Assembly (NCBI GenBank): GCA_963930775.1 | Contig: OZ005699.1 | Location: 8,825,501 to 8,889,500 of the forward strand | Length of the DNA: 64,000 nt | From: Cliona cf. orientalis | Taxonomy: Eukaryota > Porifera > Demospongiae > Clionaida > Clionaidae | Reading direction: 5' to 3' | Shown: positions 22,387 through 50,242 of the stretch, in pieces | Layout: each line of letters begins with the position of its first letter | Position numbering within the stretch: the first letter of the stretch is position 1 | Made by a program: the position numbers and the translations under genes | Notes under the pieces: generated by a model | What the model was told of the DNA's origin: nothing | Databases searched by the model: none | What the model saw: the letters and a program-made list of their open reading frames with translations, nothing else

Positions 22387-24336
22387 TTAAATATGGCCGT
22401 AAGCAACGTTCTCCTCGAGTTCAATTTTTTGTCGAGAGTGTGAATCAGTTGTCACCTCTTCATATACGACTGGAGCATCATCTGCTGGTGTATCGGTGGG
22501 AGAAGGATGTTCACGTCTCTTCCCATTTGAATGTTTGATATCACCGGTACATGGCTTTATGAAGACTCTACCCCAGCGATGACAAAGAACTCCAACCAAG
22601 ATGCCAAGGAAGAAGAACACAAAAGTGCAGATGACTCCAGTAAGAATAGTCTGGCTACTGTTCGTGAGTGCCTTTTTGACATCAGCTGTTACAGCTACAG
22701 TAGCTAAATTTAGTAATAATTGTTATTATAGTGGTGGTATAATAAAAAAAAAATCAATGAACTTGATGTACACTGTATACCTGATTCAGAAGTTGCTGTA
22801 GTTACTGTACAGTCCAGTTCAGATGGGGGTGGCCTCCAACTTCCATCAGCATGGCACACTGTTGTTAGTTCAGTGTGGGACACATCATCACATTGGATAG
22901 TGATGTTAGTCCCCTCTGGGTAAAAACCGGTGGACTGATCACCGATGTGGGTACCAGTTGGAACATTGGGAGCAATACAGAAAACTGTAGGAGCAAAAGC
23001 ATAATATTATTTTTAAATTATCGATCCAGAAAAGATTAATTTTGTATTGCTTACCTGATGACTGATTCACACACATGTGATTAGCTGGATTAGGGCTCCA
23101 AACTCCAGTGCTCCCACAAACAGCCTCTATGGTGGTGTTTGGTAGGAGACCCTCTTCACAGTGAAAAACAATTGTAGCATTAAATATTGTGCTACTAAAT
23201 GGCTCAATAACAACTCCTGGACCACTGGAGGAGACGTTGGGATTACCACAGTCTAATGTAACCATGTTTTTACCATAACACTGTTATACATGTACTAAGC
23301 ATAAGCGTACTTGCCAGCATACACTGAGGGATAGGGACCCAAGTGCCATTTGCCATGCATGTCGATGTCACTAGCTGATGTGGAAGGTATCCAGTGTTGC
23401 ACTGAAAAGTCAGTGATGTTCCAACAGATCCGTTGTGATATTCATTGATCCTTCCATTGGTGGGAGAAGAGGGAGGACTGCACCCAGCTACAGGTACAAG
23501 GTATGAATAAATTTTAACTATGAATTAATGATCTCACTAATTGATAGAGAATAAACTGTGCTGTTGCTCCCAGCACAGTTTTGAACAGTGATGTTGACAG
23601 AGTAGCTTATATTATAGTCAATCATCAGTAGCAGGTTAGTGTCAGTGGTAGTGAAGTCAGATAACTGCCCTGGCATGATAGGTGGTGTCACATTAACAGT
23701 GTAGTTGTCAGCTCCCCTACTAGTAGACCAACTGACATTTACTGATGCTCCAGTTTTTGTGAACTGCTCACTGGTCACTATGACTCCACTTGGAGCAGCC
23801 GGAGGGTCTTCAGATTGGCATTGGTAAAAATGAATACTATGCCAGGGAGAATTATTATTAACTCACCAACTGAGGCAACTTGAATAGTTGCCTCAAAGGC
23901 TATAGATCCAAGACATTCCACTGTGACACCATTTAACTGTCTCACTGCAGTCACCCACAGCTCTGTGGTGATGATATTTGAATTGAAAGAAATTACGTGA
24001 AGCTCAAAATTAAAACCAGGATCATTCACAAATGTCAATACTGATCCAATTTGTGAATTTAGTGCCGTATTCTCTAGAGTTCCTGATGGCAAAAATATCA
24101 TCCATCTTGCAACAGCCCCAGACTGCTGGCAAATGAAAATGGCACGATTCCCTGGACACACAGGCTCACTGGGGGGTTGTAGCTCAGCATCTAAAATCAT
24201 GATATCATGTTGTAAATTTGAATAAACCACATGAATATAAATTGCTAGCTACTGAAGTAGTCTATCATAGTATGAATTGCTTACTTGAATTTTGGAATAA
24301 AACTAGAGCTATGATTACCGTCCACTGTGACCACAT
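22387..24336 (-). CDS. IFS1: class A receptor, Ig-FN3-3xSushi-TM-2xITIM
   Basis: Exons: 24336-24285 (signal, MWSQWTVIIALVLF), 24190-23867 (Ig), 23807-23538 (FN3), 23487-23311 (CCP1), 23252-23055 (CCP2), 22984-22781 (CCP3), 22703-22387 (TM and tail). All introns are phase 1 and the sum is 1542 nt (513 aa). The Ig has IFIC, ARW and VEC as B-strand Cys, core Trp and F-strand Cys. Each CCP has the C-C-C-W-C pattern (e.g. FCIAPN, HADGSW, ELDC). The membrane span is about 22 residues (GVICTFVFFFLGILVGVLC). The tail ends in VVYEEV (Y489) and VAYGHI (Y510), both of the V-x-Y-x-x-V/I ITIM form. Such motifs recruit SH2 phosphatases in vertebrates; the binding partner here is unknown. Its start codon faces IFS2 across 312 bp. 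An alternative acceptor at 22685 would remove six residues. Confidence 0.88.
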
Positions 24337-24648
24337 AATAGCTATCCACGTGCACCGTACTAGTCTGTATAATATATTCTTATAGGCTAGCTTTACTGCG
24401 TAGACAGCGGCTTAGCTAGCTACTGTTGAATTTAGGCAGATAGCAAAAGGGCTTCTTGGAAAAATCAACGTCACGCGTCATTAACGCTAAGGGGGCCGGG
24501 GGAGGGGGGGGGGGTCGGGGCCTTGACGCTAATTATTTTAGCACACGTATATCTGCTACTGTCTCGTGAGCCACACCCCTCTGAACTTGCAGCCTGTGAT
24601 AGCTAGCTATAGCTATCTGCCTAAGATTGACTACATAGTATGTGGAAT
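24337..24648. promoter_or_regulatory. Shared spacer of the IFS1/IFS2 head-to-head pair
   Basis: About 310 bp between divergent start codons. It contains a G-rich block (about 24490-24513) preceded by GTCACGCGTCATTAACGC. The same block recurs in the IFS3/IFS4 spacer, so it belonged to the ancestral pair. No TATA box is evident. Confidence 0.55.
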
Positions 24649-27600
24649 ATGTGGTGGACAGCAGTCTTAGCTCTAGTTTTACTCCAAAGTCTAGTTTTAC
24701 TCCAAAGTTCAAGTAAGTGTAGTTTATATTCATGTGGTTTATTCAAATTTACAACATGATATCATGATTTTAGATGCTCAGCTACCATCCCCCAGTGAGC
24801 CTGTGTGTCCAGGGAATCGTGCCATTTTCATTTGCCAGCAGTCTGGGGCTGTTGCAAGATGGATGATATTTTTGCCATCAGGAACTCTAGAGAATACGGC
24901 ACTAAATTCACAAATTGGATCAGTATTGACATTTGTGAATGATCCTGGTTTTAATTTTGGGCTTCACGTAATTTCTTTCAATTCAAATATCATCACCACT
25001 GAGCTGTGGGTGACTGCAGTGAGAGAACTGAATGGAGTCACAGTGGAATGTGGTGGATCTGTAATATTTATGTCAACTATTCAAGTGGCCTCAGTCGGTG
25101 AGTTAGTAATAATTCTGGGCATATTCATTTTTATCAATGTCAATCTGAAGATCCTCCGGCTGCTCCAAGTGGAATCATGGTGACCAATGAGCAGTTCACA
25201 AAAACTGGAGCCTCAGTAAATGTCAGTTGGTCTACCAGCAGGGGAGCTGACAACTACACTGTTAATGTGACACCACCTATCATGCCAGGGCAGTTATCTG
25301 ACTTCACTACCACCGACACTAGCCTGCTACTGATGCTGGACTACAATGTAAACTACACTATCAACATCTCTGCCCAAAACTGTGCTGGGAGCAACAGCAC
25401 AGTTTATTCTCTACCAATTAGTGAGATCAATTAATTCATAGTTAAATTTATTCATCCCTTGTTCCTGTAGCCGGGTGCAGTCCTCCCTTTCCTCCCACCA
25501 ATGGAAGGATCAATGAATATCACAACGGATCTGTTGGAGCATCACTGACTTTTCAGTGCAACACTGGATACCTTCCACATCAGCTAGTGACGTCGACATG
25601 CATGGCAAATGGCAGTTGGGTCCCTATCCCACCTCTGAGTCAGTGTATACTGGCAGGTATGTTGAATACATGCATAATAGTATCAGATTCTATAAAATAT
25701 TTTACTAGACTGTGGTAGACCCAGGGTCTCCAGTGATCAACAAGTTGTCATTGAGCCATTCAATAACACCTTATTCAATGCTACAATCGCTTTTCACTGC
25801 GAAGAGGGTCTCCTACCAAACACTACCATAGAGGCTGTTTGTGGGAGCACTGGAGTTTGGAACCCTAATCCAGCTAATCACATGTGTGTGAATCAATCAT
25901 CAGGTAAGCGTGCAGCACAAATTTAATCATCTTTAGACTATGATTTTGCTCCCACAGCTTTCTGTAGTGCTCCTGCAGTTCCAACTGGTGCCCACATCAG
26001 TGATCAGTCCACTGGTTTTTACCCAGTGGGGACTAACATCACTTTGCAATGTAATGTATCCCAGGCTGAACCACTCATAATTACTATGTGTCATGCTGAT
26101 GGAAGTTGGATACCTTCCCCCTTTGAACTGGACTGTATCACTAGTACTAGTCCTGTAATAATAGGTAACTATTATTATATTTATAACTTGAACTGATTGC
26201 ATGATCTGAGTAGCTAAGAATATGACATAATACTTTATCCAGTTACTGAACTTCAAGGCAGCTCAAGTGTTCCTATTATCATTGGAATATCCTTGGGTGT
26301 CTCATTTCTGCTTATCATCCTAATATTAATGGTTATAGGCATTGTGCTGAAAATGAAAAGATCAGGTGAATACTTGCACTATAGTGTGACATTGTAGCTG
26401 CTATGTTATTGAATATAATAATAACCCACACAACTATCATAGGTGTCAAATCCAAGCCACTAAGGTTTGTGGAATTTAATACTTATCCAAATTGATTTTA
26501 TGATTTCTTTATGTATCATGTTTTCATGAAGACATCTAGGTACAAGTCAGGTATGTATGCATACAATAAAATTAAATTTTATGATCAGCTATGTAAGAGA
26601 AAATGGGATTTTTTATTTGCATAACATTATATATTGTGTGTACCGTGTAATACTGTAACAATAATACTGTACACAATAATAATCTGCTGTGTGTCTATGT
26701 GTATACATGTGCCTATCTATAGCTACATCAATACAAGCAGGTCACAACAATAATAATAATATTGATGTTATGTTGTTCAGGATGGAGTAGAGTACTCTGA
26801 AACAAGGCACCCTGGACCAAGGGGTGGTCAACATCAGGTAAACTTATATAAACAATTCTGGCATAACTATAATATACATTGTTATAGTAACTAAAAAAAT
26901 ATACTTTATATTGAGACATGTGATCACTACACTTGTTATTCTAATGGTAGCTGCCATGCATACGTTGTCAACACTCTTCAGCTACAGGTTAATGTTGGTG
27001 GTGATGAGTATAGTGTAATCAGCCGTCCGGCAAAAACAGAAGGAAGCTCTAAGGTACTTAAATAAACTACATGTTAGTATAACCTATTAATTGCCCTGAG
27101 CTGAGGCTCTACAGCGTTTTTGAAACCCAAGGGATATTGCATAGTCACTAATCGTGGAGGGCAATAATTAATATTGTTATTATTATTATGCAATTCTTGA
27201 ACATTAATTCTTATATGTAGGCCAACACACCCTCTGGCCAAGATAGCCGCACTCTAATATACGCTGACTTAGGCCCCTCCTCCTCTTCAAAGCGGTTGCT
27301 ACCCTCTTTAAGCGTTCGTACAGAGGACCGAGTTGTGTACTCTGCTTTGAATCATGCTGCATCCGCTCAACGGCCAACAGTTAAGAGTGAACCAGAACAT
27401 AATAAACCTGATCCTTCTCTCATTGGTGAGTCATCAACACATAGCTACTTTAAAAACATTGCATAATTTACACAAGAAGTGAGCAACTTTAATTAGAAGT
27501 GACCACTTCCATGTATGTAGGCATAATAATAATATTATGTACCCTTTATGGGCATCCTTTTGGCCCATAATTATGACCTTTAAAAGTTTTCATATTATTG

Positions 27601-29761
27601 CGAGATCCGCTATTGAATTGTAATTGTTTAGGTTCCATGTTGTGAATGTGTCAAAGGAAGGTGATCAGATTCACATGTCTTGATTATTGTTTTATTAAGA
27701 CTTAGTGCTAGAGAAGCCCTGGTCATGCATCAGCCCTAGCTGGTTTTATCACCTGTTCTATTTTTATCAACTAAATCCAAGTGTGCATCATCATCTATTT
27801 TACATCTAACTAAGCTTAGTACGGTGGAGAAACGTTACTATTATATAAGTATAGCTTTTTCTGAGGCTTTTGTACCTTAATTAGCCAGCATTTTGCACTC
27901 AGCAGTTGAAGATATACATGCATGGTTGACATTTTTATCCTATATGGTATGGAATGCCATACATTAGGGTACTTGGTCAACAGTGCATCATGCACAAACA
28001 ACAAACTTTCAACATCTGCTTCTGAATCAGTTGATCCCTCAGTCTGCCTGTAAATCTCCATATAATTATAACCTAGCTCATTACTGGTACATTTATGCCA
28101 GCATGCCATGATAGCTATTAATTTTAATCTGATCACACTACAAATACAGATTCTACCTTGGATCTAGACAGCCTACTGATCCAGCTAAAGCCACAAGTGA
28201 CACAGAAATGGAAGGAATTCGCTAATGTTGTGGGTTTGTCCAACATGATAAGGCAACTTTCGAGGTACAGTGCAGAGGAGTGTATTGTGGAAATCTGCGA
28301 CCAGTGGCTCAAAAGCCACCCCACCAAACCGACATGGAGAGATGTCGCTAATGTGGTCAAAGAAATCGGTCTCGACCAGTTATCGGAGGGCTTACTCATG
28401 GCCTACAATACAGGTTATTTATCAATGTGAAGTTAACACTGATGGTATCCGGTAGTTACAGTCTTTAGTGATGTATGAACAACGGTAGCAAGTTGCACTG
28501 TTGTACGGTATGAAGGAACCATCTGATTTTTTGTGTAGCTAGCTAGCTACCACATCACATACCATGATTCAGACAAGCACAAACAGAAAAGGTGTTATTG
28601 AGCATAGGCTTCAGCTATAAAAGTACCTACATACCATAAATTTTGAGTGAGCCCCACTCATACTAATTATTTGTGTGTATGCATGTGTGTATGTAGGGAT
28701 ACATCCTTTATGTATTCTCTAGCTCATAAAACATGCACCTCCTATTTAGCTACTGTGTGTATTGCTTTATCCTTTGTCAATGCAAACTGCTAAAGCCCAC
28801 TTCCTTTCTGTACTCTATGCCAGTTAGCTGCTTTACTCTTTACACCTTTTGGGTGATAATTAAGGTGTGTGCAAATTCCCATACCACAATGCCACTCATT
28901 GTTGATCCTCTCAAGATTCAGAAATAACCAGATCCTGCTTCTTGTTTAAATTGATCTCCACAACTTTCACATTAATTAATTTTCCTCCATACCCTTTGGG
29001 CAACATGTGTGTAAACTCCTATACCATAATTTCATGCACAGTTGATTAGCTTAATCTACCGCTTATGTATCTGTTAATTAGCTATTGCTTTCACATTGCA
29101 GTGGGTTTGCCCCTATCAAATACATGCAAGCTGCTGTAGCCCACATACTTTCTATGCTATATTATATTATGTACTTCATACCTTTTGGGAAAGATGTGTG
29201 CAAATTCTCTAGTGTACCCATTCCTGTTGACCTTATCTTAGACTAAGTAATGCACGATTCAGAATTGATCGGCTTCCAGCTGTTTTAAGTTAATCTTTCA
29301 CCTAAAAATATCAAACATTATAAAGTCATTGATTGTTGAAGTGTTAAACTACAGTCATGCATGCATTAATTTTATAGCTAGTGTTTCATCTGCATGAAAA
29401 AAGCTAAATAATGTACAGTAAATTGTGTAGGCAAATATTATTTTGTGCTTTTTATTTCACATTTCCATGGGTTTGTTTGTGCAAGCAATTACGTCGACTA
29501 TGCATGACATGGCTAATAAGTGATAAATACTATTATGTACTTACTGATGCAGGTGAGCTGCCAATATCATTTGACATGGATGCTATTCCCGACAGCTTTC
29601 TCGCTGATGATAATGAGATACCACCACCTCTTCCTCCAAAGATTGATGAAGATAATTTGACGTAAATATTAATAAATTTTAGGATAGTCCATTATGAAAT
29701 ATTATTAATCTCATGCAGATGTGCTCCACCTAAAGTGCCCGCACGGCCACCCAGGTCATGA
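24649..29761 (+). CDS. IFS2: class B receptor, Ig-FN3-3xSushi-TM-ITIM-Death-PxxP
   Basis: Exons: 24649-24712 (signal), 24774-25097 (Ig), 25151-25420 (FN3), 25471-25656, 25709-25903 and 25958-26164 (CCP1-3), 26243-26365 (TM, PIIIGISLGVSFLLIILILM), 26443-26464, 26532-26550, 26781-26837, 26988-27053, 27221-27425, 28150-28413 (Death), 29553-29661, 29719-29761. These total 717 aa. Tail tyrosines: VEYSET (Y475), DEYSVI (Y497), LIYADL (Y525) and VVYSAL (Y551); the last two fit the ITIM consensus. Residues ~580-667 form a Death domain (WKEFANVVGL, CDQWLKSHP, TWRDVANVVKEIGL). The C-terminus has two proline-rich SH3-type motifs (PPPLPPK, KVPARPPR). A second in-frame ATG lies at 24640. The signal exon holds an 18-bp internal duplication absent from IFS4. 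Domain calls rest on motif recognition. Death domains assemble apoptotic or NF-kB complexes in other animals; the output here is unknown. Confidence 0.88.
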
Positions 29762-30132
29762 CTCTCAAGGCAGCTATAGACAAGTTTCAGGATTCATAAA
29801 ATTAAGGCTTAAACATTTACCTGGTACAGCACTAGCACATTATATTATACTGCTAGTACTATTAGAATAGAATTATGCTTATAGTATGTATATTGTTAGA
29901 GATTTAGTGAACTATAGGTACATCTTACAAACCTTTACATAATTGTATCAAGTTGCATTCAAAAAGAAAGCCATGATATTGTGTGCTATAACTAACACTT
30001 GTACTGTGTTAATTGCTGGGAGCTTTTGCTACCAATAATTGGTGGGATTATTAATGATTATGAGTGTCATAATCTATTTTTCACCCCCTTAATAATAATT
30101 ATTGTTCCAATAGCTGCGCATGCAAACATGTA

Positions 30133-33100
30133 GCTGCAGTTCTCCCTCTTCTCCCGCCAATGGAAAGATCAATGAATATCAAAACAAATCAGCGGGAGCA
30201 TCATAGTGCAACACTGAATGGATACTACAGGGCCAAGTGATATCAACATGCGTGCACGCAAAATAGCACTTGGGTCCCTAGCTACCCCGCAGTGTATACT
30301 GGCTGGTATGTATACCTTACTGAATACATGCATAATATTATTATTTAAAAATTTTAGTGATAGATCTAATAGACTGCGGTAGATCAGTTGTCTCCAATAG
30401 ATCCATGGAGCATGCACCCTATTTAATATTAAGATTGTTTAATTAAGAGGCAGACACTGTTGACATGTCATAGAGGCTGTTGATGGGAGCACAGTGACAG
30501 GAGTTTGGAGCCCTAATCCAGCTAATCACATGTGTGCAAATAGCTAAACTATGTATTTCTCCAACTGGTGCCACATAAGTGATCAGTCTGCTAGTGTGTA
30601 TGTAACCAAACCCAAACCCACAACTATCATTACTTGTAGCTAATATCAAAAAGTACTCTCGCTGACAGATACATTGCAAATTAATAATTATACTTACTGG
30701 TATCATCTGCTCTTTTGTGTTCTTCCTTGGCGTCCTATAGTTGAAGTTCTTTGTCATCACTGGGGTAGAGTCTTCGTAAAACCATGTATACCAGTCGTAT
30801 CTTATGTAATATGAAGAGGTGACAACTGCTTTACACTCTTCACAAGAAATTGCCGGAACCCAAGTTGCATGCTTATGGCCCAATTTCGAGATCAGGAAAG
30901 GATAGTCCGGGACCTATGGGGTACTGGACCAGGTGCTGAGCCATGCACTGCTATGTCAATAATACTATATTATATCATAGTTTTAAGAAATCAGAAAAAA
31001 ATAATTAGCTTGATAATTTATTGAAGTCCTTTATCTTGCGTAGCTATTACAGGTACTTGCAAATGTTTAATAAACAAAACTATAACAGAAATAACAGACA
31101 TTAGTCTAAGTACACAGGTTTAGAGTATGTCATGGTAGCTAAAATAATAACAGCTGCATTACGATGATCGGGATTATTTTGCTTTTCGTTGGAAGAATAA
31201 TCCATAACAGATGGATCTTGTTTACTGTTATTGCAATCTTGACAAGCATGCAGTTATGCAAACATGCAAGTAGCCTGTCCATGGCTTAACTGTAATACCT
31301 GTATTATCATTGCACTGCATCTTGAAGAATATGCTGACTTGTTTATGGTTATCCTAGCTTGTTGAAATGACACCCCCAAAAATAGCGTACACAGTTACAG
31401 AAATAATATCATGTACTTGATGGGCAGCCAATAATAATATTATATTACTGGCCACTTTCAGTATGCTGAGTACTATACTATTGCAAAAATTAATGCCGGC
31501 TTGGATCTGAATAGCTTATTGATTCAGCTTCAGCCACAAATGACACAAACATGGAACTTCAAGCAATTCGCTAATGATGTGGGTTTGTCAAATATGATAA
31601 AGCAATTAACTTTGAGGTACAGTGCTGAGGAGTGTACTGTGGAGGTCTGTGACCAGTGGCTAAAGAGCCACCCCACCAAACTGACATGGAGAGATGTCGC
31701 TAATGTTGTCAAAGAAATTGGTCTCTGCACCAGTTGTCAGAGGGCTTACTCATGGCCTACAATACAGATTGTTTATCAATGTATGAATTTAAGTACATGT
31801 ACCCACATACCATAATCAAAGTTTCGGGTGAGCCCCAGTCATAATAGTTATTTTATATGAGTGTGAGCATGTGTGTATGTAGGGATACATCCTTTATGTG
31901 TTCTCTAGATCATAAAACATGCATACCATGTATAGCTACTGTGTGTATGCTGCTTTGTCCTTTATCAATGCAAACTGCTGAAGCCCACTTCCTTTCTGTA
32001 CTCTATGCCAGCTGCTTTTCACATCCCACCTTTGGGCAATTAAGATGTGTGTAAATTCCTGTACCACATGTACAATGTCTTTCATTGTTGACACTCTCAA
32101 GTAATCTGCTTCCTGTTTAAGTTAATTTCTGCTTTTGCTACTGTTAATTAGCTATCACTTTTGTATAACTTTCCTCCTTTATATTTTATATCTTTCGGGC
32201 TAGATGTGTGTAAATGTGACCTGCTATGAGAAAAGGGACCATTCATAATAATTATTAGTATGAAACAAGATCAATTTTTATCATGACAATGGCCAACTTG
32301 TTTTCTACAAAATTAATGTAGTAGTGAGTATACTTGTATCAGCGTATATATTGGCACCAACAAAGAGCGGATTCACTTACAGAATATATATACATTATCC
32401 TCTATGCATACTAGCTACATACATACGACAAACACGAAGTCCCAATGCAAATGGTCCCTTTTCTCGCAGTTGGTCACAAATACCTGTAACACAATTTCGC
32501 GCATAATATTATTGACCCTCTCTTAGAAATGCACAATTCAGGATGATGATTAAGCTAATCTCCACAAATTTCCCGCTTTCTATTGTTTCGTTAACTAGCT
32601 ATCACTTTCACATTTCTATGGATTCATCTTTATCAAATCACTGGTAAGCAGCTGCTTATCCCACATCCATCCTTTCTATAATTTACCTTAGCATCTTTTG
32701 GGCAAGATGTGTGTAAATTTGTATACCATAATGCCATTATTGATATACCCTAAATCCACTATTCAGAAGACTATAAGTGACCTGCTTCCAGCTGTTTAAG
32801 TTAATATTCCACCTAAAAACATCAGTTTATATAATGTATTCCTTCATTATTGCAGTGTTTCCCTGATTATACGTACATTTAAATGTAGCTACTTTGTTTG
32901 TCATAATATGCATAAAATAATAATAGCTAGCTACTTCACAAATATCAACTTTTCGCCGGACAGTTTCCTTGCTGATGATAACCACTACCTCTTCCTCCTA
33001 AGATTAGTGAAGACAACCCTCTTTCCGAGTATACTGCTGAGTGTGAATTAAAGTAGCTATTAGATTCCATGTTATTGCAAGGGTAGCTTATAAAATTATA

Positions 33101-33424
33101 TGAAGCAATTACCATATCCCTAGTAGCTTCATTGTATGTGGTAAGGGGTCACTACGTATGTAAGTGAGTTATGTAACGTTACGTAATTATCAAAATTAAT
33201 GCCTGAAGTGGAATACCGTAACTTGTAAATGAAAACAGATGACAAACTTTAAAATATTAAATTTTATAGAACCATTTTCCATATTCACCTGTATCTGTGC
33301 CAAATTTCACGATTCGATACCCTTGCGATTCGATACCTGTTTCAGAAAAGTAAATTACTACTATAGGGATGTAATAATGCAGGTCTGTTCCACTCAAAGT
33401 ACCAGCATGGCCACCAAATCATGA
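30133..33424 (+). pseudogene. psiA: decayed IFS copy with class A tail relic followed by class B exon relics
   Basis: Relics in order: CCP1 (30133-30305, internal deletions), CCP2 (about 30370-30545), a CCP3 scrap (about 30556-30600), class A TM/tail (about 30703-30885, with stops and a deletion removing the middle of the tail), Death-domain exon (31501-31770), proline-rich exon (about 32955-33020) and last exon (33381-33424). The Death relic stays open through KPTW-equivalent KLTWRDVANVVKEIGL, then shifts frame by a 2-base insertion. No Ig, FN3 or signal exon is recognisable. The mix of class A membrane exon and class B tail exons is unlike any intact gene here. Confidence 0.8.
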
Positions 33425-33520
33425 CTGTTAAAGCATAAAGTAGCTCGCGGCTACAAGTTTCATGCTTTAACTTCTACAGTCATAGGCGGCGGAAGAGGGG
33501 GGGGGCAGGGGGGGCTGGAG

Positions 33521-33556
<36 letters not shown>
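33521..33556. repeat. Poly-C run (36 nt)
   Basis: Longest homopolymer in the window, preceded by G-rich sequence (33495-33515), so it could also fold back on itself. It lies between psiA and the orphan signal exon. Confidence 0.9.
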
Positions 33557-33869
33557 ACTTTTCAAGGCTGACACACCCACTTTGACCTTGTGCTAAGCAA
33601 AAACAATGACGTTGAACTTGTCAATTTTACCAGTCTGCAATAGCCTTCTATCAGTTATGAGTCAAAAATATGCTAGTTTCATTGCTGCTCTCCTTGAAAT
33701 CGACTGTTTTTTTGCCTGTTGTCCATCGTTGTTTCTTGACTTTCACGAACGCGTTACCGCTAATTAGTGGGCGTGGCTTAAAATTTTGCGCGCGGATCCT
33801 CTAACATCTTAGCCCCCTCACATTCAATATGCTTCTGCCACCTATGACAGTGTACTATGGAGTCATAAA

Positions 33870-34390
33870 ATTAATAGCTAAACACTTATAATCCACTTCA
33901 TCCTGGCCAGATAGATACCGTATTTCCTCGAGTAGACGCCGCGGCGACTAATTTTTTCCCTCTGCTGAAACTAGCGGCGACTATTCGAGGGCGGCGACAA
34001 AAACTTTCATAGTAGTAGAACTGCATACAAGAATAATGAAAAGGTTTGTTTTAAGCTCAATACCTAGCTGCTTTTCACCGTCTGCCTTCGTCAGAAGCTT
34101 TACTAGTCTCTTGATGGCTTTCTCGCGTACAGCAGCACCGCTCGCAAGCACATGGACACCATTTAAGGGCGTGGCAAGTGGGCTCTAATTAGAGAGTGCG
34201 GCGATAATTCGAGGGCGGCGACAGTTAAGATCGGGCTTGTGTAGCTAGCGGCGACTATTCGAGTGCGGCGTCTATTCGAGGGCGGCGTCTGATCGAGGAA
34301 ATACGGTACTCAGGATTATTTACATGAATCAGAATGCATCTCACAGTCTCATTCCCAGACCTTGAGATTGGGATCAGAATGAGACTGTGC
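33870..34390 (-). pseudogene. Orphan MKW-type promoter and signal-exon relic split by a MITE
   Basis: On the minus strand, a hairpin (34344-34387) and flank matching those upstream of IFS6, IFS8 and IFS10 are followed, after a transposon, by CTATCTGGCCAGG and ATG at 33901. The signal exon begins M-K-W-I-I-S-V and then hits a stop at codon 8. No Ig exon follows. It is a remnant of a minus-strand MKW-type gene. Confidence 0.7.
33916..34308. mobile_element. 393-bp MITE, terminal inverted repeats TACCGTATTTCCTCGA
   Basis: Ends TACCGTATTTCCTCGAGTAG and the inverse (TCGAGGAAATACGGTA at 34293-34308) flank a non-coding interior with repeated GGCGGCGAC/CTATTCGAG units. It sits inside the orphan promoter relic. 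Confidence 0.8.
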
Positions 34391-34445
34391 GTGTATGTAG
34401 TATATAATATACTAAAAGTGGATCAAGCCACCATGCACCCATCAA

Positions 34446-34909
34446 TAGACGGGTTGCCTTAATATGATTAGCATGGCAAGGTCATAAATTAGAAAAATCA
34501 GTACCCTCAAGACATGTTATTTAGGCAATGATTTTTTTTTTAGATAATGCTATTGACCCATGTAATCATCACACTGAAGTTTGAGACTTGTCTGATCTAT
34601 TGCTGATTTTATAAAAATCTTAGAAGTGAGCAATTTTCCCATATGTTTGTATTGCGGTAGGGCACATTTTGCCCTACTGCCATACAAACATATGGGAAAA
34701 TTGCTCACTTCTAGGATTTTTATAAAATCAGCAATAGATCAGACAAGTCTCAAAGTTGGTGTGATGATTACATGGGTCAATAGCATTATCTTAAAAAACA
34801 TTCATTGCCATAGCAACAAGCCTTGATGGTATTGATTTTCCTAATCATGGCCGCATGTTCATGTGGCTTGAACTTTCATGTCATGAATCACATTAAGGCA
34901 ACCCGTCTA
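34446..34909. mobile_element. 464-bp foldback (palindromic) element
   Basis: The element reads almost the same on both strands: TAGACGGGTTGCCTTAAT at the left end mirrors ATTAAGGCAACCCGTCTA at the right. The centre (34624-34713) is a near-perfect palindrome around GGGCACATTTTGCCC. Arms are about 220 bp each. No protein is encoded. Confidence 0.8.
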
Positions 34910-35363
34910 TACTTACAGTCTAGGGTATTCAGTAACTATACAGGCTATTTACTTACAGTACTATGGTATTTCTTTAATTATGCATGCTTTTATGGTGTAG
35001 TTCATTGTTGTCATTTTTAGCTACAAGGATACAGACCTCGTAGACAGGTAGCAAGATCTTTAAGACAGATATTATAAGCCGTGGATAGGCATTTTGTTTC
35101 CCTAACTGTCAAGCAATAACAATAAACTAAGATGCATCTGTTTTGGATAGCCTTCCCAATAGGACAACTTGATTGCAATACAGTTATTTACCATAATGCT
35201 ATTATTAAACATCTATGACTTAAATTAATGTCTGGTATTTCTTCATTGTTTATCAAACACTTGCATGTCAAAACAATGTCATATACTTTTTGCTGCTTTC
35301 TTAAAGCTAATTAGTATCATTTACTTAGTATCAACACACCACAGCTGAGGACTATGATAATCT

Positions 35364-37570
35364 CTAGATATGGCCATAAGCAACATTCTTCTCGAGTTCA
35401 ATTTTTTGTCGAGAGTGTGAATCAGTTGTGACCTCTTCATATACGACTGGAGCATCATCTGCTGGTGTATCGGTGGGAGAAGGATGTTCACGTCTCTTCC
35501 CGTTTGAACGTTTGATATCACCGGTACATGGCTTTACGAAGACTCTATCCCAGCGATGACAAAGAACTCCAACCAAGACACCAAGGAAAAAGAACACGAA
35601 AGAGCAGATGACAGTAGCAAGAATAGTCTGGCTACTGCATGAGAGCACCTTTTTGACATCAGCCATTACAGTTACAGTAGCTAAATTTAATATTATAATA
35701 GTAGAGATATATTATTATTGTCATAATATGAATGAACTTGATGTACACTATAGCTATTATATAGCTATATACCTGATTCAGAAGTTGCTGTAGTACAGTC
35801 CAGTTCAGAGTGGGAAGGTATCCAACTTCCATTAGTATGACACATAGTTATTAGTGGTTCAGCCTGGGATACATTACATTGCAAAGTGATGTTAGTCCCC
35901 ACTGGGTAAAAACCAGTGGACTGATCACTGATGTGGGCACCAGTTGGAACTGCAGGAGCACTACAGAAAGCTGTGGGAGCAAAATCATAGTCTAAAGATG
36001 ATTAAATTTGTGCTGCACGCTTACCTGATGATTGATTCACACACATGTGATTAGCTGGATTAGGGTTCCAAACTCCAGTGCTCCCACAAACAGCCTCTAT
36101 GGTGGTGTTTGGTATGAGACCCTCTTCACAGTGAAAAGTGATTGTAGCATTGAATAAGGTGTTATTGAATGGCTCAATGACAACTTGTCGATCACTGGAG
36201 ACCCTGGGTCTACCACAGTCTAGTAAAATATTTTATGGAATCTGATACTATTATGCATGTATTCAACATACTTGCCAGCATACACTGACTCAGAGGTGGG
36301 ATAGGGATCCAAGTGCCATTTTCCATGCATGTTGATGTCACTAGCTGATGTGGAAGGTATCCAGTGTTGCACTGAAAAGTCAGTGATGCTCCAACAGATC
36401 CGTTGTGATATTCATTGATCCTTCCATTGGTGGGAGGAGAGAGAGGACTGCACCCAGCTACAGGAACAAGGACCTGGTATGAATAAATTTTAACTATGAA
36501 TTAATGATCTCACTAATTGGTAGAGAATAAACTGTGCTGCTGCTCCCAGCACAGTTTTGAGCAGTGATGTTGACAGAGTAGCTTATATTGTAGTCCAGCA
36601 TCAGAATCAGGCTGGTGTCAGTGGTAGTGAAGTCAGATAACTGCCCTGGCATGATAGGTGGTGTCACATTAACAGTGTAGTTGTCAGCTCCCCTGCTAGT
36701 AGACCAACTGACATTCACTGAGGCTCCAGTTTTTGTGAACTGCTCACTCAGTCTGGTCACTATGACTCCACTTGGAGTAGCCGGAGGGTCTTCAGATTGG
36801 CATTGATAAAAATGAATATGCATGGAGAATTATTATTAACTCACCGACTGAGGCAACTTGAATAGTTGACTCAATTGAGTCTCCAGATCCACCACATTGC
36901 ACTGTGACACCATTTAGCTGTCTCACTGCAGTTACCCGCAGCTCTGTGGTGAGGATGTTTGAATTGAAAGAAACTACATGGAGCTCAAAATTAAAACCAG
37001 GATCATTCAAAAATGTCAATACTGATCCAATTTGTGAACTTAGTGCCGTATTCTCTAGAGCTCCTGATGGTAAACTTATCCTCCATCTTGCAACAATCCC
37101 AGACTGCTGGCAAGTGAAAATTACACGATTTCCAGGACACAAAGGAGCACTGGGGGACAGTAGCTGAGCTAAAATCATGACATCATGTTGTACATTTGAA
37201 TAAACCACATGAATATACATTAGTTAGACACTAGGTTTCTGCGTGATTTAGAAGACCGAAGGGATCTATGTAGAATCCCGAGCGAGGTCTTCTAAATCAC
37301 GTGGAAACCGACTAAACAGTGTCTAATAAGTTTAGATCATAATAATAATTATTATTATAGTAAAACACTGTAATAGCCCGAGGATACAAAGTTGTATGGG
37401 TTTTATCAAAATCTTGTAGGCTACAGGGGTTCTATCACATATAGACAGCTACCTGCTAATGACCAATCAGATTGCAGTATTTACTATCATCTCGACTATC
37501 ATAGTATGAGTCGCTTACTTGAATTTTGGAATAAAACTAGAGCTAAGATTATCGTCCACTGTGACCACAT
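35364..37570 (-). CDS. IFS3: class A receptor, Ig-FN3-3xSushi-TM-2xITIM
   Basis: Exons: 37570-37519 (signal, MWSQWTIILALVLF), 37168-36845 (Ig), 36789-36514 (FN3), 36457-36272 (CCP1), 36219-36025 (CCP2), 35970-35773 (CCP3), 35680-35364 (TM and tail); 1548 nt, 515 aa, all introns phase 1. The tail keeps VVYEEV (Y491) and VAYGHI (Y512). HRWGRVF of the paralogues reads HRWDRVF. The inner acceptor used by several paralogues (AACAG before CTGATG) has changed to AATGG, so the outer acceptor at 35680 is needed; it stays in frame. The first intron contains a small MITE (37224-37326). The ectodomain, including the intron before CCP3, matches IFS4 more closely than IFS1, although IFS1 is the positional homologue. 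Confidence 0.87.
37224..37326. mobile_element. ~103-bp MITE in IFS3 intron 1
   Basis: TTAGACACTAGGTTTCTGCG at the left is mirrored imperfectly by CGTGGAAACCGACTAAACAG plus TGTCTAA at the right, with GATTTAGAAGAC / GTCTTCTAAATC forming the inner stem. It is absent from IFS1. Confidence 0.65.
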
Positions 37571-38325
37571 AATAGCTAGTTATTCACGTGCACTGTAGTC
37601 TGTATATTTAATATAGGCTAGCTCGCTATTAACTTTTACTGCGTAGAGAGCGGCTTAGCTACTGTTGAACTTAGGCAGATAGCAAAAGGGCTTCTTGGAT
37701 AAATCAACGTCACACGTCATTAACGCTAAGGGGGTCGGAGTGGGGGGGGGGGGGGGGGAATCGGGGCCATGACGCTAATTTTAGCACAAACTTCAATAAA
37801 TTTTCTGATTCTGTCTTTGATTGTCTCTTGAGCCACACCCCTCTGACGCTCCTCTCCCCCTCCCTTTGAAAAGAGGGGGCTGAGCCCCCTCAGATTAGAT
37901 TTCGCAGTTTATGCGTGCACTTGCATAGCTACCGGAGCCGGGCCTATGCATGTACCTATGATACCAGACCACTCCCTCCGCAGCGCTGGATGTATTGCAT
38001 ATCGAAAATGCAATGGATCTCGTTATGTACAGAGATCCTATCAAGTTCGATATTTACATCCAGCGCTGCGAAGGGAGTGGTCTGGTTCACGAGACTAGAG
38101 GCGGGCCATGGGGGGGGGGGGGGGGGGGGATCTTTTGCATACCGTCAATGACGAAACTAGCTTCAAGTAAAGTCACACACAGCAGCTAGGGTTCAGTGGT
38201 CCAGAAATTGATCCTGCCAGCTTGCCCTAGCTAGCTACATGTAGCTACAAAACTAGCTATAGTGAATTTGCGGCCTATGATAGCTAGCTATCTGCCTAAG
38301 ATTGACTACATAGTGTACGTGGAAC
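37571..38325. promoter_or_regulatory. Shared spacer of the IFS3/IFS4 head-to-head pair
   Basis: 755 bp against 312 bp in the IFS1/IFS2 spacer. It keeps the G-rich block (37742-37758, after CACACGTCATTAACGC) and adds a 124-bp palindromic element (37963-38086, ACCAGACCACTCCCTCCGCA and its inverse) and a second poly-G run (38110-38129). Confidence 0.55.
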
Positions 38326-41300
38326 ATGTGGTGGACAGCAGTCTTAGCTCTAGTTTTACTCCAAAGTTCAAGTAAGTGTAGTTTATATTCATGTGGTTTA
38401 TTCAAATTTACAACATGATATCATGATTTTAGATGCTCAGCTACCATCCCCCAGTGATCCTGTGTGTCCAGGGAATCGTGCCATTATCACTTGCCAGCAG
38501 TCTGGGGTTGTTGCAAGATGGAGGATAAGTTTACCATCAGGAGCTCTAGAGAATACGGCACTAAGTTCACAAATTGGATCAGTATTGACATTTTTGAATG
38601 ATCCTGGTTTTAATTTTGAGCTCCATGTAGTTTCTTTCAATTCAAACATCCTCACCACAGAGCTGCGGGTAACTGCAGTGAGACAGCTAAATGGTGTCAC
38701 AGTGCAATGTGGTGGATCTGGAGACTCAATTGAGTCAACTATTCAAGTTGCCTCAGTCGGTGAGTTAATAATAATTCTCCATGCATATTCATTTTTATCA
38801 ATGCCAATCTGAAGACCCTCCGGCTACTCCAAGTGGAGTCATAGTGACCAGACTGAGTGAGCAGTTCACAAAAACTGGAGCCTCAGTGAATGTCAGTTGG
38901 TCTACTAGCAGGGGAGCTGACAACTACACTGTTAATGTGACACCACCTATCATGCCAGGGCAGTTATCTGACTTCACTACCACTGACACCAGCCTGATTC
39001 TGATGCTGGACTACAATATAAGCTACTCTGTCAACATCACTGCTCAAAACTGTGCTGGGAGCAGCAGCACAGTTTATTCTCTACCAATTAGTGAGATCAT
39101 TAATTCATAGTTAAAATTTATTCATACCAGGTCCTTGTTCCTGTAGCTGGGTGCAGTCCTCCCTCTCCTCCCACCAATGGAAGGATCAATGAATATCACA
39201 ACGGATCTGTTGGAGCATCACTGACTTTTCAGTGCAACACTGGATACCTTCCACATCAGCTAGTGACATCAACATGCATGGAAAATGGCACTTGGATCCC
39301 TATCCCACCTCTGAGTCAGTGTATGCTGGCAAGTATGTTGAATACATGCATAATAGTATCAGATTCCATAAAATATTTTACTAGACTGTGGTAGACCCAG
39401 GGTCTCCAGTGATCGACAAGTTGTCATTGAGCCATTCAATAACACCTTATTCAATGCTACAATCACTTTTCACTGTGAAGAGGGTCTCATACCAAACACC
39501 ACCATAGAGGCTGTTTGTGGGAGCACTGGAGTTTGGAACCCTAATCCAGCTAATCACATGTGTGTGAATCAATCATCAGGTAAGCGTGCAGCACAAATTT
39601 AATCATCTTTAGACTATGATTTTGCTCCCACAGCTTTCTGTAGTGCTCCTGCAGTTCCAACTGGTGCCCACATCAGTGATCAGTCCACTGGTTTTTACCC
39701 AGTGGGGACTAACATCACTTTGCAATGTAATGTATCCCAGGCTGAACCACTCATAATTACTATGTGTCATGCTGATGGAAGTTGGATACCTTCCCCCTTT
39801 GAACTGGACTGTATCACTAGTACTAGTCCTGTAATAATAGGTAACTATTATTATATTTATAACTTGAACTGATTGCATGATCTGAGTAGCTAAGAATATG
39901 ACATAATACTTTATCCAGTTACTGAACTTCAAGGCAGCTCAAGTGTTCCTATTATCATTGGAATATCCTTGGGTGTCTCATTTCTGCTTATCATCCTAAT
40001 ATTAATGGTTATAGGCATTGTGCTGAAAATGAAAAGATCAGGTGAATACTTGCACTATAGTGTGACATTGTAGCTGCTATGTTATTGAATATAATAATAA
40101 CCCACACAACTATCATAGGTGTCAAATCCAAGCCACTGAGGTTTGTGGAATTTAATACTTATCCAAATTAATTTTATGATTTCTTTATGTATCATGTTTT
40201 CATGAAGACATCTAGGTACAAGTCAGGTATGTATGCATACAATAAAATTAAATTTTATGATCAGCTATGTAAGAGAAAATGGGATTTTTTATTTGCATAA
40301 CATTATATATTGTGTGTACCGTGTAATACCGTAACAATAATACTGTACACAATAATAATCTGCTGTGTGTCTATGTGTATACATGTGCCTATCTATAGCT
40401 ACATCAATACAAGCAGGTCACAATAATAATAATAATATTGATGTTATGTTGTTCAGGATGGAGTAGAGTACTCTGAAACAAGGCACCCTGGACCGAGGGG
40501 TTGTCAGCATCAGGTAAACTTGCTTAAACAATTCTGGCATAACTATAATATACATAACTAAAAAAATATACTTTACATTGAGGACATGTGACCACTACAC
40601 TTGTTATTCTAATGGTAGCTGCCATGGCATGCATTGTTGACACTCTTCAGCTACAGGTTAATGTTGGTGGTGATGAGTATAGTGTAATCAGCCGTCCGGC
40701 AAAAACAGAAGGAAGTTCTAAGGTACTTAAATAAACTGCATGTATAACAATAATCATTAGTATAGCTATAGGTTACTGTCCTAAGCCGAGGCTCTTCGGC
40801 ATTTTAGAAACCCGAGGGATGTTGCATAATCACTAGCTACATGTAGAGCCAAGGTGTGGGTAATACTAATAATAATAATATTAATGTTGCTATACATTTT
40901 GAACATAACATTCATTTTTATAGGCCAATACAGGCTCTGGCCAAGAAGGCCACACTCTCATATACGCTGACTTAGGCCCCTCCTCCTCTTCCAAGGCTAA
41001 GCGATTGCTACCCTCTTTAAGCATTCGTACTGAGGACCGAGTTGTGTACTCTGCTTTGAATCATGCTGCATCCGCTCAACGACCAGCGGTTAAGAGTGAA
41101 CCAGAACGTGCTAAACCTGATCCTTCTCTGATTGGTGAGTCATTCAAAGTGTTGCTACTTTAAAAACATTGCATAGTTTACATAAGAAGTGAGCAACTTT
41201 AATTAGAAGTGACCGCTTCCATGTATATAAGCATAATAATATTATGTATATACCCCTTATGGGCTTTATCCCTTTGGCCTATACATTATAGTATGACCTT

Positions 41301-43948
41301 TAAATATTGTAGTGAGATTCGCTATTGAATTGTAATTGTTTAGGCTCCATGTTGTGAATGTGTCAAAGGAACTATTATAATAGTGATCACCTGTCTCGCT
41401 TATTGTTTTAAGTGCTAGAACAGCCCTGGTCATGTCCTATTTTGATCTGTAATAATAGAACTAAATCCAAGTGTACATCATCATCTATTTTACATCTAAC
41501 TAAGCTTAATTAGTGCAGTGCACGTGTCTATCAGGCCAAGTGCCGCCCTCTGAATAGCTTGCTATAGGCTGCCTTTGGTGAAGTGACTCCTGCTGCCTAT
41601 ATATGGTAGTCTCAGGCTCACATGTACAGCGGAGAAACATTACTGTATACAAGTATTATAGCTTTTCTGAGGCTTTTGGACCTTAGCCAGCATTTTGCAC
41701 TCAGCAATTGAAGCATGGTTGACATTTTTGTCCTACATGGCATGGAATGCCATACATTAGAGTGTTTGGTCAACACTGTATCATGCATAGCAAACTTTCA
41801 ACATCTGCTTCTGAATCGGTTGATCCCTCAATCTGCTAATAAATCTCCATAAACTAGCTCAGTACTGGTACATTTATGCATGCCATGACAGCTATTTAAC
41901 CTGATCACACTACAAATACAGATTCTACCTTGGATCTAGACAGCTTACTGATCCAGCTAAAGCCGCAAGTGACACAGAAATGGAAGGAGTTCGCTAATGT
42001 TGTGGGCTTGTCGAACATGATAAGGCAACTTTCGAGGTACAGTGCAGAGGAGTGTATTGTGGAAATCTGCGACCAATGGCTCAAAAGCCACCCCACCAAA
42101 CCGACTTGGAGAGATGTCGCTAATGTGGTCAAAGAAATTGGTCTCGACCAGTTGTCAGAGGGCTTACTCATGGCCTACAATACAGGTTATTTATCAATAT
42201 GAAGTAAACAATGACGTCTCCAGTAGCTGTTTAACTGGGTGCAAGTTATTGAAAATTACTAAACAGGCAAACCCATAAAGCTAGCTATAGTGGAATTGAG
42301 TATGAATGTAGCACTATTAGGTGTTTTTCCATGTAGATAGTCTTGTTATAATACATAAAACCTTACATTACTAATTGTGACAGTGTAGTGAAACATGCAT
42401 GCTGTGATAGGCTATACATGTAGGTAAGCAATAAAACTACATGCACATGCATAGGATGGGTGCACAGGTGCATAGATTGGGTGCAAATGAACCCACATGC
42501 ACCCCCCCCCCCCCCCCCCCCCCCCCCCCGGCGACACCACTGGAAGTAAACACTGATGGTATCCGGTAGTTACAGTCTTTAGTGATGTATGAACAACGGT
42601 AGCAAGTTGCACTGTTGTACGGTATGAAGGAACCATCTGATTTTTTGTGTAGCTAGCTACCACATCACATACCATGGGGGGCGTTATGATTCAGACAAGC
42701 ACAAACAGCAAAGGTGTTATTGAGCATATTATAGGCTTCAGCTATAAAAGTACCTACATACCATAAATTTTGGTTGAACCTCACTCATAATAATTATTTG
42801 TGTGAGTGTGTGCATGTGTGTATGTAGGGATACATCCTTTATGTGTTCTCTAGTTCATATAACATGCACCTCCTATTTGGCTACTGTATGTATGCTGCTG
42901 TATATTATGCTGCCCACTAGCTCATATCACATGCATCTCCTATTTAGCCATGGCCACGGTGTGTATGCTGTTTTATCCTTTGTCAATGCAAATCTCTGAA
43001 GCCCACTTCCTTTCTGTACTCTATATATCAATGCCAGCTGCTATACTCTTTACACCTTTTGGGTGATAATTAAGGTGTGTGCAAATTCCCATACCACAAT
43101 GCCACTCATTGTTGACCCTCTCAAGATTCAGAAATAACCAGATCCTGCTTCTTGTTTAAATTGATCTCCACAACTTTCACATTAATTAATTTTCCTCCAT
43201 ACCCTTTTGGGGGACATATGTGTAAACTCCTATACCATAGTTTCACGCACAATTGATTAGCTTAATTTACCGCTTTATGTATCTGTTAATTAGCTATCGC
43301 TTTCACATTGAGGTGGGTTTGCCCCTATCAAATGAAAGCTGCTGCAGCTAATCACTTCTTTGATTTATATGTACTTCATACCTTTTGTGTGCAAATTCCT
43401 GTTACTGTAGTGTACCCATTCCTGTTGACCCTCTCTTAGACTAAGTAATGCACGATTCAGAATTGATCGGCTTCCAGCTGTTTTAAGTTAATCTTTCACC
43501 TAAAAATATCAAACATAAACATTGAAGTGTTCAACTACAGTCATGCATTAATAATATAGCTAGTGTTTCATCTGCATAATAACAGTAAGTTGTGTAGGCA
43601 AATATTTTCACAAATTTGTGTTTTTATTTCACATTTCCATGGGTTCATTGGTGATTGTGCATGGCATGTCTAATAAGTGATAAGTAGGCAGTTAAACTGT
43701 TTATATGTATGTACTTACTGATGCAGGTGAGCTGCCAATATCATTTGACATGGATGCTATTCCTGACAGCTTCCTCGCTGATGATAATGAGGTACCACCA
43801 CCTCTCCCTCCAAAGATTGATGAAGATAATTTGACGTAAATATTAATAAAACTTAATAATGATTGTTAGGATAGTCCGTTATGAAATATTATTAATCACA
43901 TGCAGGAGTGCTCCACCTAAAGTGCCCGCACGGCCACCCCGGTCATGA
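38326..43948 (+). CDS. IFS4: class B receptor, Ig-FN3-3xSushi-TM-ITIM-Death-PxxP
   Basis: Exons: 38326-38371 (signal), 38433-38759 (Ig), 38815-39090 (FN3), 39147-39332, 39385-39579 and 39634-39840 (CCP1-3), 39919-40041 (TM), 40119-40140, 40208-40226, 40457-40513, 40657-40722, 40924-41134, 41922-42185 (Death), 43727-43835, 43906-43948. The model is 716 aa, and exon lengths match IFS2 except signal (-18), Ig (+3), FN3 (+6) and the ITIM exon (+6, SSSSKAKR). Tyrosine motifs LIYADL and VVYSAL, the Death domain and the proline-rich end are all kept. The CCP3 and TM exons are nearly identical to IFS2. The intron after the Death exon carries a 28-nt poly-C run (42502-42529). The signal peptide is short (15 residues, MWWTAVLALVLLQSS) but hydrophobic. 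Confidence 0.88.
42502..42529. repeat. Poly-C run (28 nt)
   Basis: In the IFS4 intron between the Death and proline-rich exons; absent from the matching IFS2 intron. Confidence 0.9.
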
Positions 43949-49620: not shown

Positions 49621-50242
49621 GGACTGATCTAGAAAGGATAGCCCTGTGGTGTGCCATGTTGATTGATGCATTACTGATTCAGTGATACTAATAAATTTAA
49701 TGTTATTAGATATAAATTTGCCTTCAGCAAAAACTAATGTCTTATATAATTGATATAATTATATGACATTATTTTCTTGCATATAGGTACATGAATGCAA
49801 GATATATACATTAGTCTATGCATAATATAGCTATAATATTATTAGTGTACATAGCTATGGTAACAAAATAATGGCATTACGATGATCGAAGACATAATCA
49901 ATTGAAACAAGGAAAACAATTAAGATGCATATTGGATGGTTTGTATGATCTGTATTGCATTGTACTATAATTTTTGCTACCTGGCATTGTTTACGACTGA
50001 CAAAATTAATGACATTGGACCAAAACTAAGATTTCCTTGTACCAAAACATGAGCTTTAATTTCCTACACATGTTTGTCAGAGGTGACACCAACCAGCTAC
50101 ACCAAGTAGCAGCTTGCATAGTTACAGAAAATTACCATAGTATTGATGGTTGGCTCATAATCATGAAGTTATTATTGATCAATCCACTTTCAGTATGTAG
50201 CAGATAATAATTATTATTATGACATTGTGCTACATACACGTA

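Follow-up and report, generated by a model that had tools for sequence, protein, structure and literature searches.

In Hydractinia, variable Ig-type receptors form a large cluster, the allorecognition complex (Alr); some of them have ITIM- or ITAM-like tails, and we know of no Death-tailed partner in this complex. In vertebrates, gene conversion has been described as keeping paired receptors alike for Siglec-11/Siglec-16 (PMC5701461), for CEACAM1 and the ITAM-bearing CEACAMs (PMC2832619) and for CD300A/CD300C (PMC12447643), and the accessible portions of these sources present them as neighbouring or related genes with a near-identical ligand-binding exon and unlike signalling parts, with conversion around the binding exon and signalling ends that differ. 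According to the available part of a report on Botryllus, the fester family and fester co-receptor (FF/FcoR) combine Ig and sushi ectodomains with ITIM or YxxI/L/V tails and lie as adjacent gene pairs (PMC12065747).

Here, we describe IFS1/IFS2 and IFS3/IFS4, two putative cell-surface receptor pairs of the sponge Cliona cf. orientalis, in each of which a matched outermost exon would be joined to two unlike signalling tails. They lie in the window, a 64,000-nucleotide stretch of contig OZ005699.1 (C11 below). The open-access literature that we searched yielded no report of such receptor pairs in a sponge, which does not prove their absence. In the mitochondrial COX1 TGA stands for Trp, and AGA or AGG occurs at 8 codons where Arg would be expected, which fits a non-bilaterian code. 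The four genes and their tandem neighbours are arranged in the window as follows:

22387..24336, minus strand: IFS1; signal exon 24285-24336, first ('Ig-like') exon 23867-24190, FN3 23538-23807, CCP1 23312-23487, CCP2 23055-23252, CCP3 (core) 22835-22983, transmembrane (TM) segment and short tail 22387-22709 (motifs VVYEEV and VAYGHI)
About 24011..24181, minus strand: identical tract of 171 bp in IFS1/IFS2 (IFS2 side about 24783-24953)
24337..24639: gap of 303 bp separating the IFS1 and IFS2 start codons
24640..29762, plus strand: IFS2; signal exon 24640-24712, first exon 24774-25097, FN3 25152-25420, CCP1 25472-25655, CCP2 25709-25903, CCP3 (core) 25958-26110, TM exon from 26243, Tyr exon 27222-27424 (LIYADL and VVYSAL), Death exon 28149-28413, PPLPPK exon 29553-29664, last exon about 29720-29762
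35364..37570, minus strand: IFS3; signal exon 37519-37570, first exon 36845-37169, FN3 36514-36789, CCP1 36273-36457, CCP2 36025-36219, CCP3 35821-35970, TM segment and short tail 35364-35687
Approximately 35800..37100, minus strand: near-identical tract of IFS3/IFS4 (partner about 38500-39780 on the plus strand)
37571..38325: gap of 755 bp separating the IFS3 and IFS4 start codons
38326..43948, plus strand: IFS4; signal exon 38326-38371, first exon 38433-38759, FN3 38815-39090, CCP1 39147-39331, CCP2 39385-39579, CCP3 39634-39786, TM exon from 39919, Tyr exon 40925-41133, Death exon 41921-42185, PPLPPK exon from about 43727
48088..62960, plus strand: six tandem short-tail family members, T5 (48088-49618), T6 (50580-52124), T7 (52808-54875), T8 (55517-57817), T9 (58359-60138) and T10 (60930-62960), used as outgroups for IFS1-IFS4

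The exon limits predicted for IFS1 are those of open exons with GT/AG borders judged by eye, the end of IFS4 is the figure given by the first-pass annotation, and both tracts were placed from alignment columns (64-234 for the 171-bp tract), the limits of the IFS3/IFS4 tract being approximate. A hand search for the joins between TM and Tyr exons in IFS2 and IFS4 gave no frame-consistent chain. The 303-bp gap is a possible two-way promoter common to IFS1 and IFS2.

The tails of IFS1 and IFS3 are short with two YxxV/I motifs, and those of IFS2 and IFS4 combine two YxxL motifs with a predicted Death domain and a PPLPPK stretch. All eight Death members compared with the Pfam Death family matched it (best E 4.8e-7), the IFS2 exon itself doing so at E 5e-4, under Pfam's cut-off, and no PDB sequence matched at E 0.1. 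Two ITIM-type motifs ([S/I/V/L]xYxx[I/V/L]) were present per tail in 14/14 stop-free C11-type short tails (the B4 tail, with its broken frame, was omitted) and in 5/5 long tails; of seven short tails on contig C2, one had the strict motif once and six had two looser YxxI/L/V/M motifs. Two motifs arose by chance in 0.11% of shuffles of the IFS1 tail and 0.29% of those of the IFS2 Tyr exon. The first exon shows a C-x8-C-x8-W-x62-C pattern that is Ig-like by eye, and among 34 members compared with Pfam one matched C2-set_2 (E 0.0022) and one ig (0.015). A profile search with two consensus and three single sequences gave no match, no PDB sequence passed 0.1 (best 0.29), and hhalign against I-set, with a poor template of only two sequences, returned a probability below 1%. 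The putative Ig fold of this exon is unconfirmed.

The resemblance to vertebrate paired receptors proposed by the first-pass annotation holds for the working principle, namely a near-identical putative ligand-binding exon in neighbouring genes, unlike signalling parts, and a likeness apparently kept by conversion (tracts of identity, rejection of the block tree, and synonymous distances that are low on C2, in one genome). It does not extend to an ITIM in one member and a charged TM residue with an ITAM link in the other. In IFS, one member has a Death-domain tail and the other a short one, and YxxL/V/I motifs occur in both; inspection by eye showed no charged residue within the predicted TM stretch, no ITAM partner was seen, and the putative binding domain is unrelated by sequence. 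Hydractinia Alr differs from IFS in phylum and domain order. Compared by description, Botryllus FF/FcoR and IFS share an Ig(-like)/sushi ectodomain, tyrosine-motif tails and adjacent pairs, but the Botryllus pair consists of two related proteins thought to heterodimerise, and the accessible part of that account mentions neither the sharing of a single exon by conversion nor a Death tail (PMC12065747).

On C11, the first exons group as IFS1+IFS2 and IFS3+IFS4, ranking 1 and 2 among the 105 exon pairs of 15 family members. DNA identity is 93.5 and 96.9% within the pairs versus 88.2% (IFS1-IFS3) and 90.1% (IFS2-IFS4) across blocks, which bears out the first-pass annotation, whose quoted shared peptides are also present. 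Over the stretch from the intron 1 end through CCP3, 31 sites join 1+2 against 3+4, two join 1+3 and none joins 1+4; the first exon alone gives 20:0:0. With 11 outgroups, the maximum-likelihood tree of this exon was the pair tree, and an AU test rejected the block tree ((1,3),(2,4)) that the annotation had named as refuting its claim (p 1.2e-8). A run-length permutation test with 5000 shuffles (our own implementation, not the GENECONV program) detected a run of 18 variable sites over 171 identical bp in IFS1/IFS2 and stretches of 659 and 620 identical bp in IFS3/IFS4, all at the floor of p 2e-4.

The remaining exons are less uniform. IFS3 and IFS4 share nearly the whole ectodomain, including identical CCP2 and intron 5 and a 97% identical CCP3, as had been noted, whereas the clear sharing of IFS1/IFS2 is limited to the 171-bp tract inside the first exon, so that, of these two pairs, the claim of a shared ectodomain goes too far for IFS1/IFS2. 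Counting against a pair-specific reading, IFS1 is not nearest IFS2 outside the first exon: it lies closer to IFS3/IFS4 in FN3 and CCP1 and is the outlier in CCP2-CCP3, with CCP3 rejecting the pair tree at p 6e-5. As sole proof of IFS1/IFS2 conversion, the first-exon synonymous distance fails (0.109, versus 0.107 for IFS1-IFS4). The tails had been said to follow the opposite pattern to the first exon; this is correct for tail type, which sorts as 1+3 and 2+4, but the IFS1 short tail is nearer T5 (93.9% over 264 bp) than IFS3 (91.6% over 322 bp).

The same arrangement recurs on C2. Death exons have at least 128 matches genome-wide (150 of 300 candidates scored), at least 19 of them on C2:12.5-13.96 Mb; 12 of the 19 listed there have a surveyed first exon within 7 kb upstream and seven do not. 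The C2 sample comprised the best 57 of 105 first-exon matches, all within C2:12.6-13.96 Mb, the other rows being two on C10 and 46 weaker ones. Twelve genes were labelled Death-tailed, including L081, which has both a short-tail and a Death match, and 45 not Death-tailed; 14 of the latter first had no tail match, of which five were later read as short and nine are without tail assignment. Seven of the 15 reciprocal-best first-exon pairs in this sample are adjacent genes, and all seven consist of one Death-tailed gene and one without a Death tail, the partner's short tyrosine tail being read in five and a search match only in two. Shuffling labels gave a mean of 2.4 such mixed neighbours (p 2e-4), and shuffling gene order p 5e-5; a Fisher test, which omits partners, is less strict. 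Five of the 12 Death-tailed genes have no adjacent reciprocal-best partner. Four C2 pairs are convergent and three tandem, and the two C11 pairs are divergent; inverted arms, which the first-pass annotation had made part of the conversion, are therefore not required, and inverted orientation was rejected as a general cause given the three tandem pairs among the seven.

How far does similarity extend within the C2 pairs? First-exon identity is 97.9, 95.6, 95.5 and 91.1% within P1, P2, P3 and P4 versus a between-pair mean of 74.2 and maximum of 82.3%, and synonymous distances within the seven pairs are 0.028-0.151 against a background median of 0.386 (1533 pairs). In three of the four fully read pairs, the first exon is far over background while FN3 and the CCPs are at or modestly over it; last-CCP identity is 92.6, 77.0, 74.0 and 75.4% in P1-P4 (between-pair 75.2), CCPa exceeds the between-pair mean in P3 and P4, and FN3 identity in P4 is 87.7%, above the highest between-pair value (84.5). 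The similarity block stops at the first-exon borders in P2 and P4 and extends about 200 bp past them in P3. A recent duplication with tail exchange, in which a copy was joined to the other tail and the ectodomain is merely young, without ongoing conversion, could account for IFS3/IFS4 and P1, which are alike across most of the ectodomain as a fresh copy would be. We nevertheless consider it unlikely, given the mostly background-level FN3 and last CCP of P2-P4 beside alike first exons, signal exons and 5' flanks that are not common to pair members, and the sorting of tails and signal exons of IFS1-4 by block (signal exons: IFS1-IFS3 96.2%, IFS2-IFS4 93.5% gapped) but of the first exon by pair.

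Slightly less probable still is a family-wide homogenisation in which neighbours exchange DNA through proximity and tail type is irrelevant. FN3 and CCP1 are indeed 89-97% alike across the C11 family, and exchange is not confined to pairs: IFS2 and IFS4 are near-identical over about 25800-26700 (IFS2 coordinates), showing that between-block exchange also occurs, and C2 exons L052 and L057 are 99% alike at 177 kb separation. However, first-exon identity reaches at least 90% in 7/17 mixed C2 neighbours versus 3/36 without a Death-tailed member, the best match is the adjacent gene for 8/12 Death-tailed genes (one of which matches another Death-tailed gene) versus 2/38 non-partners, and tandem C11 first exons never share more than 64 identical bp. 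That the blocks are alleles set in tandem, or arms collapsed or copied by the assembler, is very improbable: although such loci assemble poorly and a very polymorphic animal might show block differences of several per cent between alleles, many indels and unequal intergenic lengths set the blocks apart, exon differences are dispersed substitutions, and the pattern recurs at seven further places on C2.

We therefore favour, with reasonable confidence, recurrent gene conversion, retained by selection, through which two tails continue to carry a matched recognition exon. Identical tracts, the rejected block topology and low synonymous distances support gene conversion, or equivalent local DNA copying, between the arms. 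Both tail types would be old, since both are present on C11 and C2, and the first exon would diverge fast between pairs, while local conversion would copy it between pair members, at times together with the remaining ectodomain exons. Selection probably retains copies that keep a pair matched, so that one ligand may be read by two outputs, opposed or graded. That a single specificity may serve two outputs, already put forward in the first-pass annotation, gains strength from the seven C2 pairs, where Death and short tails are again paired on a common first exon.

More speculatively, and on balance doubtful, the C2 and C11 clusters might serve an early-branching animal as a recognition complex; in it, Death receptors would be licensed by a same-specificity neighbour with a short tyrosine tail, conversion would keep both in step while pairs diversify, and a paired-receptor logic independent of that of vertebrates would serve, perhaps, self/non-self discrimination. 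If the favoured reading is true, a non-bilaterian animal would have arrived at paired-receptor logic (one specificity, two outputs, gene conversion) with Death-domain signalling replacing ITAM adaptors. The first exon should then vary between individuals yet remain matched within a pair, and concrete gene pairs can now be named for the question of how sponges recognise self, non-self or microbes.

Ten genes of a single family lie in the window, which spans positions 8825501-8889500 of contig OZ005699.1 (hereafter C11), as two head-to-head pairs and six genes in tandem, and further members are found elsewhere on C11 and on contig C14 of this 216.8 Mb assembly:

Window 22387..29762, IFS1 (minus strand), head to head with IFS2 (plus strand)
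Window 35364..43948, IFS3 (minus strand), head to head with IFS4 (plus strand)
Window, plus strand, T5-T10, six tandem family genes
Window 30134-30885, 31496-31781, 44313-45012 and 45628-45899, downstream fragments
C11:6.665-6.679 Mb, C11:2.22 Mb and C14:3.22 Mb, additional family members

In each gene, a putative Ig-like first exon is followed by an FN3 exon, two to three CCP (sushi) exons and a transmembrane tail exon. CCP1 and CCP2 of IFS2 match Sushi above the Pfam cut-off, and its FN3 exon gives an fn3 match below the cut-off. The downstream fragments, located 3' of each Death exon, comprise CCP and short-tail pieces of another family gene plus a second Death-like exon, and are probably relics duplicated along with the block. 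The DNA separating the blocks contains a near-perfect inverted repeat (window 34488-34845, 89% identical to its own reverse complement), and the IFS3/IFS4 interval a palindrome-like stretch (window about 37880-38150); both are possibly traces of mobile elements.

The genes carry two types of tail. The short tail was present in 15 genes, namely IFS1, IFS3 and every other C11-type copy recovered by the tail search; one of these (B4) has a broken frame, and all 14 tails without stops contain two ITIM-form tyrosine motifs. The predicted tail exons of IFS2 and IFS4 encode a transmembrane segment, then the two tyrosine motifs LIYADL and VVYSAL on one exon, and a Death domain and PPLPPK on further exons. 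The Death match of IFS2 alone was weak (E 5e-4, below the cut-off), and a Death match was obtained for all eight aligned relatives (best E 4.8e-7). Tail type and signal exon both group by block, i.e., opposite to the first exon, as the first-pass annotation had claimed for the tails.

That first exons pair as IFS1/IFS2 and IFS3/IFS4 was borne out by the exon phylogeny. Among the four genes, 20 informative first-exon sites support this grouping and 0 support either alternative, and with 11 outgroups the pair tree was the best tree, while the block tree expected from block duplication was rejected (p-AU 1.2e-8). Because IFS3 and IFS4 are so similar, such sites may alternatively reflect changes on their common branch, and reading them requires the outgroup trees. 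Among the 105 first-exon pairs formed by 15 genes, IFS3-IFS4 ranked first (96.9%, 252 identical bp) and IFS1-IFS2 second (93.5%, 171 identical bp), the next longest identical tract being 64 bp. The similar stretch starts in intron 1 and, for IFS3/IFS4, stops close to where the CCP3 exon ends; these genes are indeed alike into CCP3.

The pairing is not simple throughout. IFS1 and IFS2 agree with each other in the first exon only: IFS1 is closer to IFS3/IFS4 in FN3 and CCP1 and is the outlier to the other three genes in CCP2-CCP3. Synonymous distances, suggested earlier as a check, did not set IFS1-IFS2 (0.109) apart from IFS1-IFS4 (0.107) in the first exon, and the case for IFS1/IFS2 thus rests on the clustered 171-bp tract and the tree. 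Moreover, the near-identity of IFS2 and IFS4 at about 25800-26700 shows that exchange occurs between blocks too. Within the C11 family, the most divergent exon was the first (pooled dS 0.345, dN 0.245, ratio 0.71, compared with dS 0.12-0.19 and ratios of 0.52-0.64 for the remaining exons; pools exclude IFS3 and gene numbers vary by exon), and it has therefore escaped the family-wide likeness, except within the pairs. No C11 family exon had a pooled ratio above 1.

Long-tail and first-exon searches revealed a large related cluster on another contig (C2:10.9-14.0 Mb), where Death-tail and short-tail receptor exons are numerous; at least 128 Death-exon matches exist genome-wide, most of them on C2. 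At locus L026, a short-tailed plus-strand gene (LYEEL, VAYGPI) and a Death-tailed minus-strand gene have their tails facing, and their ectodomains are 94.8% alike across 1285 bp. From C2:12.6-13.96 Mb, part of the cluster, we compared the best 57 first exons, out of 105 matches overall; 12 of the 57 belong to Death-tailed genes. Seven of the 15 reciprocal-best pairs were positional neighbours, and all seven combined a Death-tailed gene with one lacking a Death tail (label shuffling: mean 2.4, p 2e-4; order shuffling: p 5e-5). Reading five of the seven non-Death partners showed in each a short tail that carries two YxxI/L/V/M motifs; for L064 and L076, the short tail was assigned by search hit. 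Identities of at least 90% occurred in 7/17 mixed neighbours, 3/36 neighbours without a Death-tailed member and 1/3 neighbours that were both Death-tailed. For 5 of the 12 Death-tailed C2 genes, an adjacent reciprocal-best partner of unlike tail was absent. The first exons of L052 (C2:12999988) and L057 (C2:13176760), 177 kb apart, are 99% alike, which would fit recent long-distance duplication or exchange.

Identity (%) by exon for C2 gene pairs P1 (L026a/b), P2 (L044/L041), P3 (L060/L073) and P4 (L065/L080)
Exon; P1; P2; P3; P4; between pairs
First exon; 97.9; 95.6; 95.5; 91.1; mean 74.2, max 82.3
FN3; 100; 77.5; 78.6; 87.7; 77.7, max 84.5
CCPa; 96.5; 84.3; 91.1; 92.4; 83.3, max 93.8
CCPb; 92.6; 77.0; 74.0; 75.4; 75.2, max 92.7

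Similarity drops at both first-exon ends in P2 and P4, extends about 200 bp past the first exon in P3 and spans the examined part of the ectodomain in P1. Inside the seven C2 pairs, dS was 0.028-0.151 versus a background median of 0.386 (1533 pairs; background minimum 0), and this silent-site likeness points to copied DNA and not to protein-level selection alone. The first-pass observation is right, and it is one case of a wider pattern.

Elsewhere in the genome, long sushi-exon arrays occur at C18:0.706-0.733 Mb, C14:7.39-7.45 Mb and C12:8.65 Mb, and many strong I-set immunoglobulin matches cluster at C15:7.87-8.06 Mb; an I-set search revealed no relation between this cluster and the first exon studied here. 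In mitochondrial COX1, TGA encodes Trp, and AGA/AGG fall at expected Arg positions, which fits a non-bilaterian animal. The COX1 translation is identical on C111 and C149, suggesting that the assembly holds the mitochondrial genome twice.

Conversion keeps the binding exon alike in mammalian Siglec-11/16 (PMC5701461), CEACAM1 and its ITAM-bearing relatives (PMC2832619) and CD300A/C (PMC12447643), and the Botryllus FF and FcoR genes, encoded as pairs, combine Ig and sushi domains, with ITIM, hemITAM or YxxI/L/V in the FcoR tails (PMC12065747). The sponge pairs would work like the mammalian paired receptors and resemble the Botryllus genes in parts, but they differ in their combination of Death and short tails. 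The likeness would be one of working principle or partial resemblance, and we claim no homology. We found no sponge report of such an arrangement in the one open-access library searched.

The most likely mechanism would be local gene conversion between neighbours with different tails, transferring either the first exon by itself or a longer part of the ectodomain, and copies preserving the match within a pair would be retained. Sequence comparison supports the copying and matching of the first exon within pairs, and this part of the earlier proposal of conversion between inverted arms stands. The C11 pairs start head to head, 303 bp (IFS1/IFS2) and 755 bp (IFS3/IFS4) apart, a spacing that would allow a common promoter; the C2 pairs are convergent or tandem, and hence neither a common promoter nor inverted arms can be general. 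The outcome would be one binding specificity on both a short tyrosine tail and a Death-domain tail; for the paired members we infer a common ligand, co-expression and the output.
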